Below the pieces are notes generated by a model that was not told the origin of the DNA, searched no databases, and saw nothing but the letters and a program-made list of their open reading frames with translations. Of a DNA stretch of 64,000 nt, positions 16,508 through 24,083 are shown in pieces; positions within the stretch are counted from its first letter, which is position 1, and each line of letters starts with the position of its first letter. A program made the position numbers and the translations under genes. The DNA comes from Candidatus Polarisedimenticola svalbardensis (GTDB lineage: Bacteria; Acidobacteriota; Polarisedimenticolia; Polarisedimenticolales; Polarisedimenticolaceae), in the NCBI GenBank assembly GCA_014764515.1, contig JACXWD010000002.1:1-64000 (forward strand), given 5' to 3'.

Positions 16508-17290
16508 ATGGCGGCCCGAGTAACGAAGAAAAAACCGACCACCAAAAAAGCCGCGAAGAAAGCTGTCAAGAAGACGGCTGCCAAGAAAACCGCGAAAAAG
16601 ACAGCGAAGAAGACCGCGAAGAAGAAGGTCGCCAACAAGAAAGTGGCCAAGAAAACGGCGAAGAAGGTCGTAAGGAAGACGGTCGCGAAAAAGCCTGTTG
16701 CGAAGAAGAAGGTTGCCAAAAAGAAAGTGGCGAAAAAGGCCGTCAAGAAAAAGGTGGTCCGGAAGAAAAGGGTCATCAAGAAGAAGCGCTTCAACAAGCG
16801 GGAGCTGAACAAGTTCCGGGCCCTTCTCGAAGTCAAACAGCGAGACCTGACCCAGGCGTACACCCTGTCCAAGGGCGCATCCATGGATTCCACCACTGAC
16901 GGCACAGAGGATTACATCGACTACGCCGTCAGTTCCTACGCCAAGGAGTTCATGCTTTCTCTCAGTGAAATGGATCGCAAGCAGCTCCAGACGGTGGAGG
17001 AGGCTCTGAAGCGGATCGTCGGTGGCGACTATGGCCGCTGCGGATACTGCGGCACCGAGATCAAGATCAAACGGCTGGAAGTCGCACCCTGGGCCCGCCT
17101 CTGCATCAAATGCCAGGATCTGGACGAGCGCGGCCTCCTGGACGACAGGCGCATGTTCGACGATCTCGATGATGAAGAGGAAGAATTCGACTATCATCCT
17201 GAAGATGATGCTGATACGTCGGAAGAGCCTGAGGTGGGTCGTGAGGATCCGACCCTCAAAAAGGATTCTGACGACGAGACTCTGGACTGA
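16508..17290 (+). CDS. DksA/TraR-type zinc-finger protein with lysine-rich histone-H1-like N-terminal tail
   Basis: A 260-residue protein in three parts. Residues 4-98 are almost entirely K, A, T, V and R in KKT/KKV-type repeats, like the C-terminal tail of histone H1. Residues about 98-205 form a DksA module: a helix with the DxxDxA coiled-coil-tip motif (DYIDYA, 135-140) and a C4 zinc finger CGYC-x17-CIKC (about 178-202). Residues 215-260 are strongly acidic. DksA binds the RNA polymerase secondary channel and, with ppGpp, shifts rRNA and amino-acid gene transcription. The intact acidic tip suggests true DksA activity. The basic tail could bind DNA or RNA and the acidic tail could mask it. 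A TGGAGGGAG ribosome site precedes the ATG. It has its own strong promoter. Confidence 0.85.
   Translation: MAARVTKKKPTTKKAAKKAVKKTAAKKTAKKTAKKTAKKKVANKKVAKKTAKKVVRKTVAKKPVAKKKVAKKKVAKKAVKKKVVRKKRVIKKKRFNKRELNKFRALLEVKQRDLTQAYTLSKGASMDSTTDGTEDYIDYAVSSYAKEFMLSLSEMDRKQLQTVEEALKRIVGGDYGRCGYCGTEIKIKRLEVAPWARLCIKCQDLDERGLLDDRRMFDDLDDEEEEFDYHPEDDADTSEEPEVGREDPTLKKDSDDETLD
16526..16795 (+). repeat. Low-complexity lysine-codon repeat tract
   Basis: A purine-rich stretch of repeating AAGAAG, AAAACC and GCGAAG units inside the DksA-like gene, encoding K/A/T/V repeats. It is the only clear low-complexity tract in the window and could vary in length between strains. Confidence 0.7.
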
Positions 17291-17354: not shown

Positions 17355-20300
17355 GTGCCCCTCGTGACCAGCAGTACGAAGGACAAACCAGCCCCCCGCC
17401 GGAAGAGAGTCTGGCTCCGGCGCCTGGTGCTCGTGCTTGTCCTGTTGTTCCTGGTCGGCGCGCCCCTTGCCACCTATCTCCTCCGACACCGGATCGCCGA
17501 CCGGCTGCTGGAGAACCTGGTGCGCAAGGTGGAGGACTCCTCCGGAGGGTCCCTGACCATCGGCCAGGCCGACCTGGACCTCCTCCGTCTCAAAGGGGAT
17601 CTCGGTGACGTCCGGCTGGAGATCCCGCAAGAGGCCGGCCCTCCGTTCCTGGCCTCTGTCCGGACCGTTTCCGCCTCATTCTCTGTAGGCGACCTGTTGC
17701 GGTTGCCGGCCGGGCAGATATCGATTCGCAGCCTGGAAGTGGTAGGCCCCGATATCCGTTTCGATCGCTCTTTCCTGGAGCGGCCGGCCCGGGACACCGG
17801 GGAGGATCTGGCCCTGGACCTCAAGATAGGGGTGTTGGCGATTCGGGACGGGCGATTCCGGTATGAAGGCAAAAACCTGCCTCTGGCGGTGGATGTGCGC
17901 AATCTGGTCCTCTCGGCGGAGTGGGACGATGCCGCCCGGCTGCTGGACGGTGCGGTTTCATTCCAGTCGGACCTGGTCGGTGGGCCGTTCCGCACATCAC
18001 TGCCCCTGGATATTTCCTCCCGATTCCGGCAACGGGGCACCCGGGCCGAACTGACCCGGATGGTGGCGGAGGCGGAAGCGGGCCGAGCCGAACTGACGGA
18101 AGCGACGGTGAGCTGGGATGACGGTGTGCGGATTACCGGTACCGGTGAGGTGGAAGGCGACCTGGCCCGGTTCGGTGAGCTGCTGTCTCCGGGAATGCCG
18201 GTGCTGGCCGGCGAAGTCGGAGGGGACCTCCGTCTGGAGTATGGAGCAGGGGAACTGCTGATCCACAGCAGGATAGAGGGTCACAGTGTCCAGGTCGGTC
18301 CGGTACGGACCGGCAGGGTGTCGGCGGATGCCTCCATCGATCTGGACGCCCTGACCCTGGACCGCCTGGAAGGAACCGCATTCGGCGGAGCGGTCAGTGG
18401 ATCGATCCAGGTGCCCTGGAACCTGGACCGGGAACTGCGGATGGATCTGGCCGGCGCCGCCATGAGCGCCGAAAGGCTGTTCCGACTCCTGGAACTGCCG
18501 CTGCCGTTCGCCGCCGACACCGACCTGACCTTCCGGTTCGTCGGTTCGTGGCCGGAAAGGTCGACCTGGAACGGGTCGGGCAAGGCGGTCCTGCGCAGCA
18601 GGGAGATTGACGATCTGATCCCTGTAGATGGTGAAGGGGAATTCGGGATCCGTGCAGGAGTGCTCCAGGTCGATGCGCCGCGGTTCATCACTTCCGGGGG
18701 CCTGTTCTCGGCTACGGTCAATGTTGACCTGGTCCACGGCCGCTCCGGTGAAGGGCAGTTCCTGAGACTGGCTGGACAGACCGACGACGCCGGGAGAACC
18801 CGGGACATTACGTCCCGGATCCTGGAGAGGTTCGACACCGCACTCCCGGACACCTTGATGGAGCCTCTCTCCGGCTCCGGCGACATTCAGGCCGAGATCG
18901 GGCTGGGGGAGCAGACCTTCCTGGATATGACCCTGGACCTGGCAGACGGGTCGTGGGGGCCGGAGCCGTACCGCCGGCTGTCTTTCCGCACGTTGATGGA
19001 AGGTGATCAGGTTCGAATCCGGGACATGGATATCGACAGCGGGGACTGGACACTGGCCGGCGAGCTTGAACTCGGTCTTGCAGCCGGCGATCTGGTTTCG
19101 GCGTCCCTGACCGCCCGGCGCTTCCCCCTGGAGCGGGTTCTGCAGGTGACCGGCATGGTGGCCGACGCCACCGGCCTGCTCAGCGGCAGGGTCCGGCTGA
19201 GACCAGGAGAGGACGGCGTTCATGGTGACGGCGAAATGACCATGGAAGAAGCGGTCATCGCCGGCTTCCCTGCCGGGGTGCTGGCCGGGTCCGTCAGGGC
19301 GGAGGCCGGCCGAATCCGGATCGGCGATCTTACCGTCAACGGACCGGGGATCGAGGCCGATCTGGATGTTCAATACGACATGACCAGCGGCGAGGCCGAT
19401 TTCAGGATCCTGCGATCCACGATCCTTCCTTCGGAACTGCCTCTCTATGACGGCGAGCCGCCGCCGTTCCAGGCCCCTGCGGAGGTGGCAGGTACGGTGC
19501 AGTACCGGGACGAGGAGTTCAGCGGCCTCCTGGAAGTACAGGGTTCCGGATGGTCCCTTGCCGGCCATGATCTCCCCGACCTGGCAGCCAGGGTCCGGCT
19601 GGAGCCGGCCGGTCTGGAAGCCCGGATCCACTCCAGGGAAGGAGACAGCCTGGAGAGCGACCTCACCCTGGGCTGGGACGATGGGCTACCCCTGGTCCTC
19701 CATCTCAAACTTGGTGACTACCGCCTGTTGTTGGGGGATCCCAGTGACGCGACGCCGATGTGGACCCGGCTCTCAGGCTCGGTGGAGGTGCGTGGTGACC
19801 TGGCTGACCTGGACAGCCTGACCGCCGACGGTTCCCTGGAGCAGATGGATATCCGTGTCGGGGCCCACCACCTGAACCTGGACCGGCCGGCCCCCCTGCT
19901 TCTCAACCGGGAGCGGCTGGTGGTCGGTCCGGTGGAACTGGGTGGCGAAGTGTCCGACCTGAGAGCTCGGCTGACCCTCCTTCGGGATGACGGCAGCGTT
20001 TCCATGGACGTCACCGGCAAGGTCGCCCTGGCTGCGTTGGCTGCACCGCTCCCGGACCTGCGGGCCCGGGGGAATGCAGAGGTCGATCTCCACCTGGCCG
20101 GTACCCTTGAGGATCCGGATCTCACCGGTCAGGTCCGGTTCCAGGACGGGTGGGTCCGGCTGCTCGGCTTCCCCCAGCCGCTGGAGCAGGTCCGGGGCAT
20201 CATCCGGTTCGGGAACGATGAGGCGGAACTTTCCGCATTCTCCGCCCGGTTCGGAGGAGGCGAGCTGTCAGGAGAAGGTGGGCTGCAGTTCGACCGCTTC

Positions 20301-23300
20301 ACGCCGGACTCGTACTTCGTTTCCCTGATCCCGGTGAACACCAGGATCGGCTACCCGGAAGGATTCCGGGGCGTCTATGAAGGTGATCTCCTCCTGCGCG
20401 GGGACCGGACCGACGCCCTGATCAGCGGACGGCTGGAGCTGCTGCGCGGCCTCTACCAGGAGCCGTTCGACATGGCGGCGCTCCTGGGTTACGGCGCTCG
20501 GGAGTACTCGGCCGACGAGCTGGTGATGCTGCCGGTTCCGGTGACTGTGCGCCTGGATATTTCCGCCGCCGATGGGATCTGGATCAAGAACGACGTGGCG
20601 GAGCTGGAGACTTCCCTGGATCTCGATATCAACGGCAACGTGTCGGCACCTGAAGTCACCGGTCGCATCACGATCCTTGAAGGGGGCAGAATCCGCTTTC
20701 GGGACGTGGAGTACCGCATCCGGTCCGGTTCCCTTGAACTGCTGGACCTGAACAAGATCAATCCCTACATGGATATCACCGCCGTGACCACGGTGAACAA
20801 ATACGAGGTCACCCTGAGGATCGAGGGCACCCTGGACCGCTTCGAATACGATTTGACCAGCGTGCCGTCCCTGTCCCAGCAGGACATCCTGGCGCTCCTG
20901 ACCACCGGCTACACCCTGGAAGACATGGCGGCAGGCCCGGGCTCCTCCGGTCTGGATCTCACCGGCGACATGGCGGCCAGTTATTTCGCCAGCGCCCTGA
21001 CCGGCCTTTTCGAAAATCAGTTGAAGAAAGTGTTCCGTCTGGAGAGGGTCCGGATAAACCCGTACGCCGCCAGCGGCAGCGCCGACCCCACCACCCAGTT
21101 GACCCTGGGAAAAGAGGTCGCCGACAACCTGTTCATCATCTACTCCACCGAGCTGGGAGGGGAAGAACGGCAGATCTACAAGGTGGACTGGCAGGTCACA
21201 CGCAAGTTCAACCTCACCGCGGAGAGTGACTCGGACGCCGGGATAGGTGGAGGTTTGGAATTCTCCAACCGGTTCTGGCTGGGGAGGGAGCGTGGAGATG
21301 CCGAGGAGGCCACCGTCGCAGGGAGGCCGGCGGACCAGGCGGAAACCATCGTCCGGTCGGTTGCCCTTCCCGGTTTGTCCGGGGAAGATTCGGCAAAGAT
21401 GCGGAAGGCCCTGCCTTTGAAGGAAGGAGAGCCGTATCGCAGAGCCAGGCTGTTCGAGGGCGCCGAAGAGATCCGCAGGATCTATGTGCGGGAAGGCCAC
21501 ATCCTGGCCGCCGTGGAGCCGGACGTCAGCCACCTGCCGGATCAGACCGGCGTGGACGTGATCTACGCCGTCGATCCAGGACCGGTCTACCAGGTGCGGT
21601 TCGAAGGTGTGCCGGCCAAGGTCGAGAAGGGGCTGCGCAAAGAACTGGAGGAGATGTGGATCGAGTCGATCTTCGTGGATGAAGGGTTCGAGGACTCGAA
21701 GGTGAGTGTGCAGCAGTACTTCCAGAAGCGGGGACATTACACCGTGGATGTGTCGGTGGAAATCGATGCCGAAACCGGCAGAGGCGCCGGGGAGAAGCGT
21801 GCGGTCGTATTCAGAATCGACCCGGGACCCCGGGTGGCAGTCCAATCCCTGACGTTCGAAGGGAACGCTTCCATCGAGGAAGCCCGCCTGCGGAAACAGG
21901 TCCTGACTTCCACAGGCTCGACCTTCGGGAAGGATTATCTCTTCCCGAAAACACTGGAGAGCGATCTGGGAGCGATACGTAACCTGTACCGGGATAACGG
22001 TCACCTTCTGGTGCAAACCCCGCCACCCAGGATCCGCCTCCTGACCACTGGTGACCAGGCCGATATCGTACTGCGTGTTGCGGAAGGCCCCCGGTTCACC
22101 GTCTCCGGTGTGGAGTTCCCGGAACCGGGACCGTTCGACCCGGACCAGATGGCCGGTTGGGCCGGCCTGCCCACAGGCGGCTTGTTCAGCCCCAGGGCGC
22201 TCCTGGAGGCGGAGGGGCGGCTCCGCGGGGCCCTGGACCGGGAAGGGTACCCGGAGGCCCGTGTGGACGGTTCCGGCATAATTGCCGAGGACACTGTCCT
22301 GGTCCGTTTCAAAGTCATCCCCGGACAGCGGGCCACGGTGGGGGATATCCGCATCGAGGGCAACCACCGCACCCAGGACAAAATCATCCGCAGGGAGCTG
22401 ACCTTCAAGCGCGGCGAGACGATTTCACGGGCCAGCATCCTCAAGAGCCAGCACAACCTGTACCGCCTGGGGCTGTTCAGCCGAGTGCGAATCGATTACC
22501 AGCCCGAGGCCGGTGCTTCAGGCGATGCATTCACCATGGTCGTCCAGGTGCGTGAGTCGCCGCCTTTCCGCCTAAGGGTCGGCGCTGGTTACAGCAGCGA
22601 ATACGGCGCCCGGGGCGAGGTGGTGGTGACTCACGAAAACGTCGGTGGGTACGATCGCAGCCTCACCCTCCACGCCCGGGCCAGTGAACAGGAGCGCTGG
22701 CTGCAGGTTCTGATCGAAGAACCCCGGCTGTTCACGCAAAAATGGCCGGCACTGATCAGCATGATCAGCGAACGCCAGGAGGAGATCGGTTACAGCTTCC
22801 GGCGTCGCTCCGGTGCGCTTCGTGTCGAACACGAGTTCCGGCAGAACTGGAAACGGTTCTTGCGGTACAACCTGCAGCGGGTCGATCTGTTCGATATCCA
22901 GGCCGGGAGTGAAGACCTGATCCTGGAGCAGAAGCTGGAAGACCTGGATCTGGGTGACATCGGCTTCGCACTGGTCCGGGACACACGGGACGACCCGTTC
23001 CTGACCCGGAAGGGACAGTACCTCAGCTCCGAACTCCGGCTGTTCGCCCCGGCCCTGGGCTCCGATGCTTCCTTCGGGAAATTTTCCGCCCGTGGGTCGT
23101 TCACCCGGACATTCGATGGAGGCGGCACATTCGCTTCCGGTCTCCGTCTCGGGTTGGCGGAGACCTATGGCCCTACGACCCGTGTTCCGCTGTCGGAGAG
23201 GTTTTTCGCCGGAGGCGATCGCACCCACCGCGGGTTCGCCAGGGACCAGCTCGGGCCCCGGGGCAGTAACGGAGTGCCCCTGGGAGGGGAATCGATGCTG

Positions 23301-23546
23301 CTGTTCAGCCAGGAGTGGCGCCAGCCGCTGTGGCGGATGCTGCGGGGGGTCGTGTTCTACGACGCCGGCAACGTTTATCTGACCCTTCCGGATTTCAGGC
23401 CGGGGGACCTGCGCCACGCGCTGGGACTGGGGCTGCATGTTGAAACGCCGATCGGGCCGATCCGTGTGGAGTACGGTCACAAACTGGATCGGGAGGACGG
23501 TGAATCCCGCGGCGAATACTTCCTCTCCATCGGCCAGATCTTCTGA
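17355..23546 (+). CDS. TamB-Omp85 (BamA/TamA-like) fusion, envelope-spanning translocation/assembly protein
   Basis: One uninterrupted 2063-residue frame. Residues about 18-42 form an inner-membrane signal anchor after a basic start. Residues about 45-1310 are a TamB/AsmA-like beta-rich repeat, ending with the TamB (DUF490) C-terminal block (SQQDILALLTTGY, then LERVRINPYAASG and LTLGKEVADNLFI). After a short linker, residues about 1335-1735 hold five POTRA-like units, the last including IRIEGNHRTQDKIIRREL. Residues about 1736-2063 are an Omp85 beta barrel with FFAGGDRTHRGF (the RGF lid-lock motif) and a C-terminal Phe. In other bacteria TamA and TamB are separate proteins joining inner and outer membranes. 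Here they are one chain. Five POTRAs is the BamA count, against three for TamA. Starts GTG 17355; GTG 17364 is possible. It probably inserts outer-membrane proteins or moves lipid. Confidence 0.9.
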   Translation: MPLVTSSTKDKPAPRRKRVWLRRLVLVLVLLFLVGAPLATYLLRHRIADRLLENLVRKVEDSSGGSLTIGQADLDLLRLKGDLGDVRLEIPQEAGPPFLASVRTVSASFSVGDLLRLPAGQISIRSLEVVGPDIRFDRSFLERPARDTGEDLALDLKIGVLAIRDGRFRYEGKNLPLAVDVRNLVLSAEWDDAARLLDGAVSFQSDLVGGPFRTSLPLDISSRFRQRGTRAELTRMVAEAEAGRAELTEATVSWDDGVRITGTGEVEGDLARFGELLSPGMPVLAGEVGGDLRLEYGAGELLIHSRIEGHSVQVGPVRTGRVSADASIDLDALTLDRLEGTAFGGAVSGSIQVPWNLDRELRMDLAGAAMSAERLFRLLELPLPFAADTDLTFRFVGSWPERSTWNGSGKAVLRSREIDDLIPVDGEGEFGIRAGVLQVDAPRFITSGGLFSATVNVDLVHGRSGEGQFLRLAGQTDDAGRTRDITSRILERFDTALPDTLMEPLSGSGDIQAEIGLGEQTFLDMTLDLADGSWGPEPYRRLSFRTLMEGDQVRIRDMDIDSGDWTLAGELELGLAAGDLVSASLTARRFPLERVLQVTGMVADATGLLSGRVRLRPGEDGVHGDGEMTMEEAVIAGFPAGVLAGSVRAEAGRIRIGDLTVNGPGIEADLDVQYDMTSGEADFRILRSTILPSELPLYDGEPPPFQAPAEVAGTVQYRDEEFSGLLEVQGSGWSLAGHDLPDLAARVRLEPAGLEARIHSREGDSLESDLTLGWDDGLPLVLHLKLGDYRLLLGDPSDATPMWTRLSGSVEVRGDLADLDSLTADGSLEQMDIRVGAHHLNLDRPAPLLLNRERLVVGPVELGGEVSDLRARLTLLRDDGSVSMDVTGKVALAALAAPLPDLRARGNAEVDLHLAGTLEDPDLTGQVRFQDGWVRLLGFPQPLEQVRGIIRFGNDEAELSAFSARFGGGELSGEGGLQFDRFTPDSYFVSLIPVNTRIGYPEGFRGVYEGDLLLRGDRTDALISGRLELLRGLYQEPFDMAALLGYGAREYSADELVMLPVPVTVRLDISAADGIWIKNDVAELETSLDLDINGNVSAPEVTGRITILEGGRIRFRDVEYRIRSGSLELLDLNKINPYMDITAVTTVNKYEVTLRIEGTLDRFEYDLTSVPSLSQQDILALLTTGYTLEDMAAGPGSSGLDLTGDMAASYFASALTGLFENQLKKVFRLERVRINPYAASGSADPTTQLTLGKEVADNLFIIYSTELGGEERQIYKVDWQVTRKFNLTAESDSDAGIGGGLEFSNRFWLGRERGDAEEATVAGRPADQAETIVRSVALPGLSGEDSAKMRKALPLKEGEPYRRARLFEGAEEIRRIYVREGHILAAVEPDVSHLPDQTGVDVIYAVDPGPVYQVRFEGVPAKVEKGLRKELEEMWIESIFVDEGFEDSKVSVQQYFQKRGHYTVDVSVEIDAETGRGAGEKRAVVFRIDPGPRVAVQSLTFEGNASIEEARLRKQVLTSTGSTFGKDYLFPKTLESDLGAIRNLYRDNGHLLVQTPPPRIRLLTTGDQADIVLRVAEGPRFTVSGVEFPEPGPFDPDQMAGWAGLPTGGLFSPRALLEAEGRLRGALDREGYPEARVDGSGIIAEDTVLVRFKVIPGQRATVGDIRIEGNHRTQDKIIRRELTFKRGETISRASILKSQHNLYRLGLFSRVRIDYQPEAGASGDAFTMVVQVRESPPFRLRVGAGYSSEYGARGEVVVTHENVGGYDRSLTLHARASEQERWLQVLIEEPRLFTQKWPALISMISERQEEIGYSFRRRSGALRVEHEFRQNWKRFLRYNLQRVDLFDIQAGSEDLILEQKLEDLDLGDIGFALVRDTRDDPFLTRKGQYLSSELRLFAPALGSDASFGKFSARGSFTRTFDGGGTFASGLRLGLAETYGPTTRVPLSERFFAGGDRTHRGFARDQLGPRGSNGVPLGGESMLLFSQEWRQPLWRMLRGVVFYDAGNVYLTLPDFRPGDLRHALGLGLHVETPIGPIRVEYGHKLDREDGESRGEYFLSIGQIF

Positions 23547-23625: not shown

Positions 23626-23985
23626 TCAGGCCAGGGAAAACTTCAGATGGCCTTCATGATGCTGAAGTACCTGGCGTAATTTCTGTTTGGCTTCCCGTTC
23701 CAACTGGCGGACCCTCTCACGGCTCAGATTCAGGGTCCTGCCGATTTCTTCAAGGGTCAGCTCGGCGCCGCCGAGCAGGCCGAAACGGTTTCGGATGATA
23801 TGCCGTTCCCGATCATCCAGATCGGTCAACGCCGACCGTACAAGGCCGGCAATCTCTTTCGTGTAAAGTTCGTCCATCTGGCTTTCAGAATTCGCATCGG
23901 TCAACAGGCTCGAAAGCCTGCATTCGCCCGAAGGATCTACAAAGTCGTCAATGGACCGTTCTTTCTGCAGCAGCGGAATGAACAC
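23626..23985 (-). CDS. Stand-alone sigma-70 region 3.2/region 4 protein
   Basis: A 119-residue protein from GTG 23985. Residues about 8-50 match the sigma region 3.2-to-4 linker (SIDDFVDPSGECRLSSLL), and 50-110 match region 4, with LTDLDDRERHIIRNRFGL and the helix-turn-helix LTLEEIGRTLNLSRERVRQ. Regions 1.2, 2 and 3.0 are missing, so it cannot bind a -10 element alone. The start is set by a nine-base perfect Shine-Dalgarno AGGAGGTGA (23998-23990) four bases upstream. Longer in-frame sequence to 24078 has no sigma similarity. It has its own terminator. Options: a decayed sigma factor, or a functional region-4 subunit working with a separate region-2 protein, as known for the split SigO/RsoA system of Bacillus. 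The signals for expression favour function. Confidence 0.75.
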   Translation of the reverse strand: MFIPLLQKERSIDDFVDPSGECRLSSLLTDANSESQMDELYTKEIAGLVRSALTDLDDRERHIIRNRFGLLGGAELTLEEIGRTLNLSRERVRQLEREAKQKLRQVLQHHEGHLKFSLA

Positions 23986-24083
23986 CCTGTCACCTCCTGT
24001 CGAGCCCCTCGACGTCCATAAAAGCAACTCCCGTGCCGGAATTTCAGATCTGGACCATAAACAGGCCGAAATTTCCATAAGTT

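Follow-up and report, generated by a model that had tools for sequence, protein, structure and literature searches.

The closest described system to the gene reported here is the translocation and assembly module (TAM) of Escherichia coli, which consists of two proteins: TamB, with an anchor, a body described with about 60 strands (PMC13382580), a C-terminal domain of one helix and six strands and a free C-terminus, and TamA, a POTRA-bearing Omp85 protein with three POTRAs. The last TamB strand pairs with beta1 of TamA to give a hybrid barrel, TamB contacts all three TamA POTRAs, and its groove reportedly carries phospholipid (PMC12800296). TamB of Borrelia binds POTRA2-3 of BamA (PMC11361582), whose barrel it is predicted to complete (PMC13382580). 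In the BamA-TamB and TamB-BamA operons of Acidobacteria and Spirochaetes TamB is likewise partnered by a BamA-type Omp85 and not by TamA (PMC4494059, PMC13382580); the order Omp85 then TamB was reported for Acidobacteria by Heinz et al. 2015 (PMC4494059). The two partners are separate genes there, and no fusion is mentioned in the accessible text of PMC4494059, PMC13382580 or PMC11361582. The acidobacterium Candidatus Polarisedimenticola svalbardensis differs from all of these in that a single gene (17355-23546, + strand) encodes TamB and Omp85 as one chain with an internal TamB C-terminus, five POTRAs and a BamA-type barrel. The gene lies in the window, i.e., the 64,000 nucleotides at positions 1 to 64,000 of contig JACXWD010000002.1 (assembly GCA_014764515.1, a 180-contig draft of 3.69 Mb).

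The gene starts with GTG and encodes 2063 residues (226 kDa) with zero internal stops, a stop-free run whose chance is about 10^-24.6 on base composition alone. Such an uninterrupted frame from TamB to Omp85 had been proposed in the original prediction from the letters of the DNA, and the hidden Markov model (HMM) search suggested there recovered both families in one open reading frame, with matches to Pfam TamB, POTRA and Omp85, each well above its cut-off. The predicted inner-membrane anchor, placed at the N-terminus as in TamB proteins, was located in residues 25-43 (17427-17483, +; this and all further parts of the gene are on the same strand), the most hydrophobic 19 residues of the chain (hydropathy maximum 2.61). 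The AlphaFold2 model of residues 1-1200 consists of a single long helix at the N-terminus (residues 18-63), followed by strands in series; the beta-rich TamB body (residues 64-1200, 17544-20954) contains about 66 consecutive strands by our own count, at a mean predicted local distance difference test (pLDDT) score of 82.9. The sequence profile of the TamB part matched E. coli TamB (9xdc_B, E 2.6e-24), and the top solved structures retrieved by Foldseek with the N-terminal model were chain B of E. coli TamAB 9xdd and 9xdc (9xdd_B, E 5e-10). The TamB C-terminal domain PF04357 (DUF490) covers residues 962-1307 (20238-21275; E 8e-43, 147.5 bits against a cut-off of 22.4), and its last six strands occupy residues 1231-1307 (21045-21275) in the AlphaFold2 model and the alignment. 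The final strand ends in ...EFSNRF and aligns with the free C-terminus of TamB in unfused relatives. TamB is retained to its very end, the aromatic end of strand 6 being present, now internally, in 31 of 48 aligned rows; in place of the free terminal F/Y that usually closes the protein, the chain runs on into POTRA-Omp85.

The junction, found where it had been predicted, is a hydrophilic linker of 24 residues (1308-1331, 21276-21347) with low model confidence, no conservation and no hydrophobic segment. It stands where split Omp85s have their signal peptide; in the two large fused clades described below its length is 13-32 residues. A separately made Omp85 from an internal translation start was considered and rejected, as none of the candidate start codons near the junction is followed by a signal peptide. 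The AlphaFold2 model of residues 864-2063 (48 rows, pLDDT 81.6, predicted template modelling score 0.70) contains the helix and the six strands that end TamB (to residue 1307), the linker, five POTRAs of beta-alpha-alpha-beta-beta type and 16 barrel strands. The POTRAs were delimited at residues 1332-1407 (21348-21575), 1412-1489 (21588-21821), 1495-1574 (21837-22076), 1582-1655 (22098-22319) and 1661-1734 (22335-22556), the fifth coinciding with the best Pfam stretch. The count of five, read earlier from repeat spacing, agrees with the five stretches matched by POTRA PF07244 (E 3e-38). The barrel occupies residues 1738-2063 (22566-23543), with Omp85 PF01103 at residues 1762-2063 (E 3.5e-42), and Foldseek with the C-terminal model retrieved BamA (E 1e-44) and TamA (4c00, E 4e-32). 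The RGF motif (residues 1959-1961, 23229-23237) has an invariant R and G and a nearly invariant F in 23 relatives, and the terminal Phe is present in 43 of 48 aligned rows; both had been anticipated. The POTRA5-barrel region is strongly conserved as well.

Of the 41 class genomes, 33 have an assembled TamB-POTRA junction, in frame every time (counts are our own); these include the closed contigs CP011806.1 and CP070706.1, the former from the near relative Acidobacteria bacterium Mor1 (subdivision 22). The sequence can be aligned straight through the junction in relatives, and Pfam TamB, POTRA and Omp85 all pass in 23 of 23 full-length class relatives. Regarding the remaining genomes, six have no convincing TamB C-terminus and two more have a match that ends before the junction. 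Two apparent exceptions have a plain cause or lie elsewhere: in L101 the scaffold is interrupted by a stretch of N, and in L217 (G026) the junction is intact and the seeming frame break comes further downstream, within the POTRAs. That two genes were joined by an error of sequencing or assembly, which the original prediction named as the finding that would overturn it and which the draft state of the assembly could suggest, is rejected and has next to no probability left, because the same in-frame join is carried by 33 class genomes including closed contigs. In one member of the family to which the window belongs only a highly divergent fusion was found (L035, G002:C46) and no ordinary copy. 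A record filed as 'Euryarchaeota archaeon EA_19' (L095, VBMI01000114.1) has a fusion barrel part nearly identical to that of G022; the archaeal label is probably a binning error.

The Omp85 half reaches 350.6 bits against the NCBIfam BamA model TIGR03303 and passes its equivalog cut-off of 297.15; five POTRAs and a 16-strand barrel are likewise as in BamA. Against the TamA model NF047950 it scored 130.6 bits, with a cut-off of 625 and three POTRAs in TamA instead of five. No match above this cut-off was present in any of the 41 class genomes, and an identification of the barrel as TamA was rejected on both grounds. The canonical BamA of this genome is encoded elsewhere (contig C171, locus L082; 899 residues, 459 bits to TIGR03303), in the neighbourhood of an lpxA-like gene. 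All canonical BamAs form one clade with 100% support in the tree of the Omp85 halves, and every fused Omp85 groups with TamB-associated Omp85s. The fused barrel is neither the canonical BamA nor orthologous to it, since the genome has its canonical copy elsewhere, in that separate and fully supported clade. The notion of a BamA-like hybrid put forward earlier therefore held for the profile but not for the phylogeny; judged by sequence, the half is a TamB-associated BamA-type Omp85 of Acidobacteriota, neither canonical BamA nor TamA, and the protein is better described as this Omp85 fused to its TamB. This half probably descends from the duplicated BamA of Acidobacteria. The search for separate bamA and tamA genes that had been proposed thus found the former but not the latter: HMM searches of this genome gave no separate TamA, no second TamB and no YhdP or YdbH match. 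They gave one AsmA-like match in a frame of 556 residues, one MlaD-domain match and a third, weak Omp85 match, which is a PlpD-type patatin-Omp85. Another class member (L058, G027:C102) carries, in addition to the fusion, a stand-alone TamA (633 residues, 432 bits) beside a stand-alone TamB (1532 residues), both probably acquired.

The survey of relatives that had been suggested found the same join class-wide and, elsewhere in Acidobacteriota, tamB and omp85 usually as neighbours. Three arrangements occur in the phylum: fused, TamB followed by Omp85 as neighbours, and Omp85 followed by TamB (in Terriglobia). TamB-first pairs often overlap or are separated by only a few bases. Of the split Omp85s examined in such operons, most have a recognisable signal peptide, which the fused Omp85 has lost. 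In two species of family f37 (L170:1659-8891 and L173:2151-9236, from G266 and G287) TamB and Omp85 share a reading frame that just one stop codon (TAA or TAG) divides, followed by a signal-peptide-like stretch; by sequence these loci are an intermediate, one stop codon short of fusion. Fused proteins form three groups in the Omp85 tree, namely the class clade (29 rows), a clade of 16 rows in other classes and a clade of four rows (families f20, f73 and f79) that is nested among split operons. The tree of the TamB halves shows the same three groups, with the four-row clade again among split genes; L035 and L067 are long branches. A single clade for all fused proteins, i.e., a single origin, was rejected on the Omp85 half by the approximately unbiased (AU) test (p 6e-7), with only a borderline, non-significant result on the TamB half alone (p 0.067). 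As judged from these phylogenies, the fusion arose at least twice, because of the AU rejection on the Omp85 half and the nesting of the four-row clade in both trees. Two genomes of family f16 carry TamB fused to a single-POTRA Omp85 (L070:4704-10268 in G059 and L081:3-3158 in G044) along with a longer multi-POTRA fusion. Beyond the phylum one contig scan was made with a single barrel pattern and 80 matches listed, so that divergent fusions in other phyla could escape it; plasmid records covering 80% of the query were not found.

The favoured explanation, which we hold to be probable, is that the fusion is a single-chain TAM in which a TamB conduit for lipids or outer-membrane proteins (OMPs) is covalently tethered 1:1 to its own Omp85. 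It would have originated when an ancestral operon, with tamB ahead of a BamA-type omp85 dedicated to TamB, lost the stop codon as well as the signal peptide of Omp85. The N-terminal helix would anchor the chain in the inner membrane and the C-terminal barrel in the outer membrane, with the TamB body as a hydrophobic groove spanning the periplasm; the unchanged six C-terminal TamB strands would dock on the POTRAs and barrel of their own chain, as E. coli TamB does with TamA, and the docked TamB would hand over phospholipid and/or OMP substrate. Canonical BamA would perform the bulk of OMP assembly and presumably insert the fused barrel too. In the models all structural elements used in the TamB-Omp85 contacts of E. 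coli and Borrelia are present here in one chain. The uncleaved chain would then span both membranes and fix the stoichiometry at 1:1, and by analogy with these systems it may dock within itself and transport lipids or OMPs. The full form of this proposal, an uncleaved covalent lipid/OMP conduit that bridges inner and outer membrane, is kept in permanent self-docking by the pairing of its internalised TamB strand with its own barrel and arose at least twice by stop-codon loss, is more tentative and is given slightly less than an even chance.

The geometry weighs against the single-chain module, as does the borderline AU result, and three other readings were considered. Through the short linker TamB strand 6 is fastened at its end to POTRA1, which along the chain lies farther from the barrel than any other POTRA, and an intramolecular hybrid barrel therefore needs a bent or ring-closed POTRA arm. 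Such tethering at the far end of the arm would suit a domain swap, with the TamB C-terminal strands pairing with the barrel of a neighbouring chain, or a pairing with the separate canonical BamA, which is present in the genome and whose POTRAs TamB can bind in other bacteria (PMC11361582). This reading is judged quite unlikely, as the single POTRA of L070 and L081 puts strand 6 near its own barrel and the covalent partner of TamB comes from a dedicated clade of Omp85s instead of being canonical BamA. The linker is also hydrophilic and variable in sequence and hence cleavable in principle, so that the fused chain might be only a precursor, cut by a periplasmic protease after export into an ordinary two-part TAM, with the fusion ensuring co-export and equal dosage. 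That is improbable: the linker has no conserved cleavage motif and is short throughout two large fused clades with many families, and the Omp85 half lacks its own signal peptide and therefore relies on the TamB half for export in every case.

The third reading retains the tether but not the activity of the barrel, taking the Omp85 half to have lost protein insertion and to serve only as a passive tether that holds a TamB lipid conduit in the outer membrane. It is suggested by the retention of canonical BamA in the same genomes and by the analogy with the elongated MlaD of Veillonella parvula, whose C-terminal barrel tethers a lipid system (PMC10665443); the strong conservation of the RGF motif, the POTRA5-barrel region and the C-terminal Phe, together with a score above the BamA equivalog cut-off, makes it unlikely, though it deserves to be kept in mind. 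The same MlaD is a precedent for a one-chain envelope bridge as such, as one polypeptide is anchored in the inner membrane, has an outer-membrane barrel at its C-terminus and serves lipid traffic; it differs from the single-chain module in being an MCE protein with a narrow barrel and a proposed role in retrograde transport, and has no relationship to TamB or Omp85 (PMC10665443). Extra N-terminal domains on an Omp85 barrel are known from patatin-Omp85 (PlpD), WD40-Omp85 and metalloprotease-Omp85 proteins, but no TamB-containing architecture is among the fusions described in PMC4104836.

The gene order ppdK-dksA-fusion-(sigma-like)-mutL-SLT is common to the family and its order and extends partly beyond. 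Directly upstream of the fusion (16508-17290) the window encodes a DksA-like zinc-finger protein whose N-terminal tail of about 95 residues is rich in lysine and alanine and resembles histone H1, and a DksA-like gene occupies the same position in relatives. Between the fusion and mutL lies a gene for a short sigma-70 region 3/4-like protein (23626-24078, - strand), whose position is also kept in relatives.

A description of a TamB-Omp85 fusion was not found in the open-access literature searched, subscription papers and preprints being outside the search. A large group of Acidobacteriota makes TamB and Omp85, which are separate elsewhere, in the form of a single giant chain expected to cross from one membrane to the other. 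The work on TamAB and Borrelia raises the questions of whether TamB and Omp85 form a lasting 1:1 complex and how a barrel in which TamB strands sit can still insert substrates. In a natural single chain, stoichiometry and pairing are fixed and the geometry is restricted by the short linker to POTRA1 and, in one variant, by a single POTRA; such a chain also offers a one-gene TAM for structural work. The fusion shows that TamB does not need a free C-terminus. That precisely these partners were fused more than once is strong evidence of the Rosetta-stone kind for a joint function of TamB and a BamA-type Omp85 in bacteria without TamA, and the self-docked bridge, if true, would be a permanent lipid/OMP conduit in one chain.

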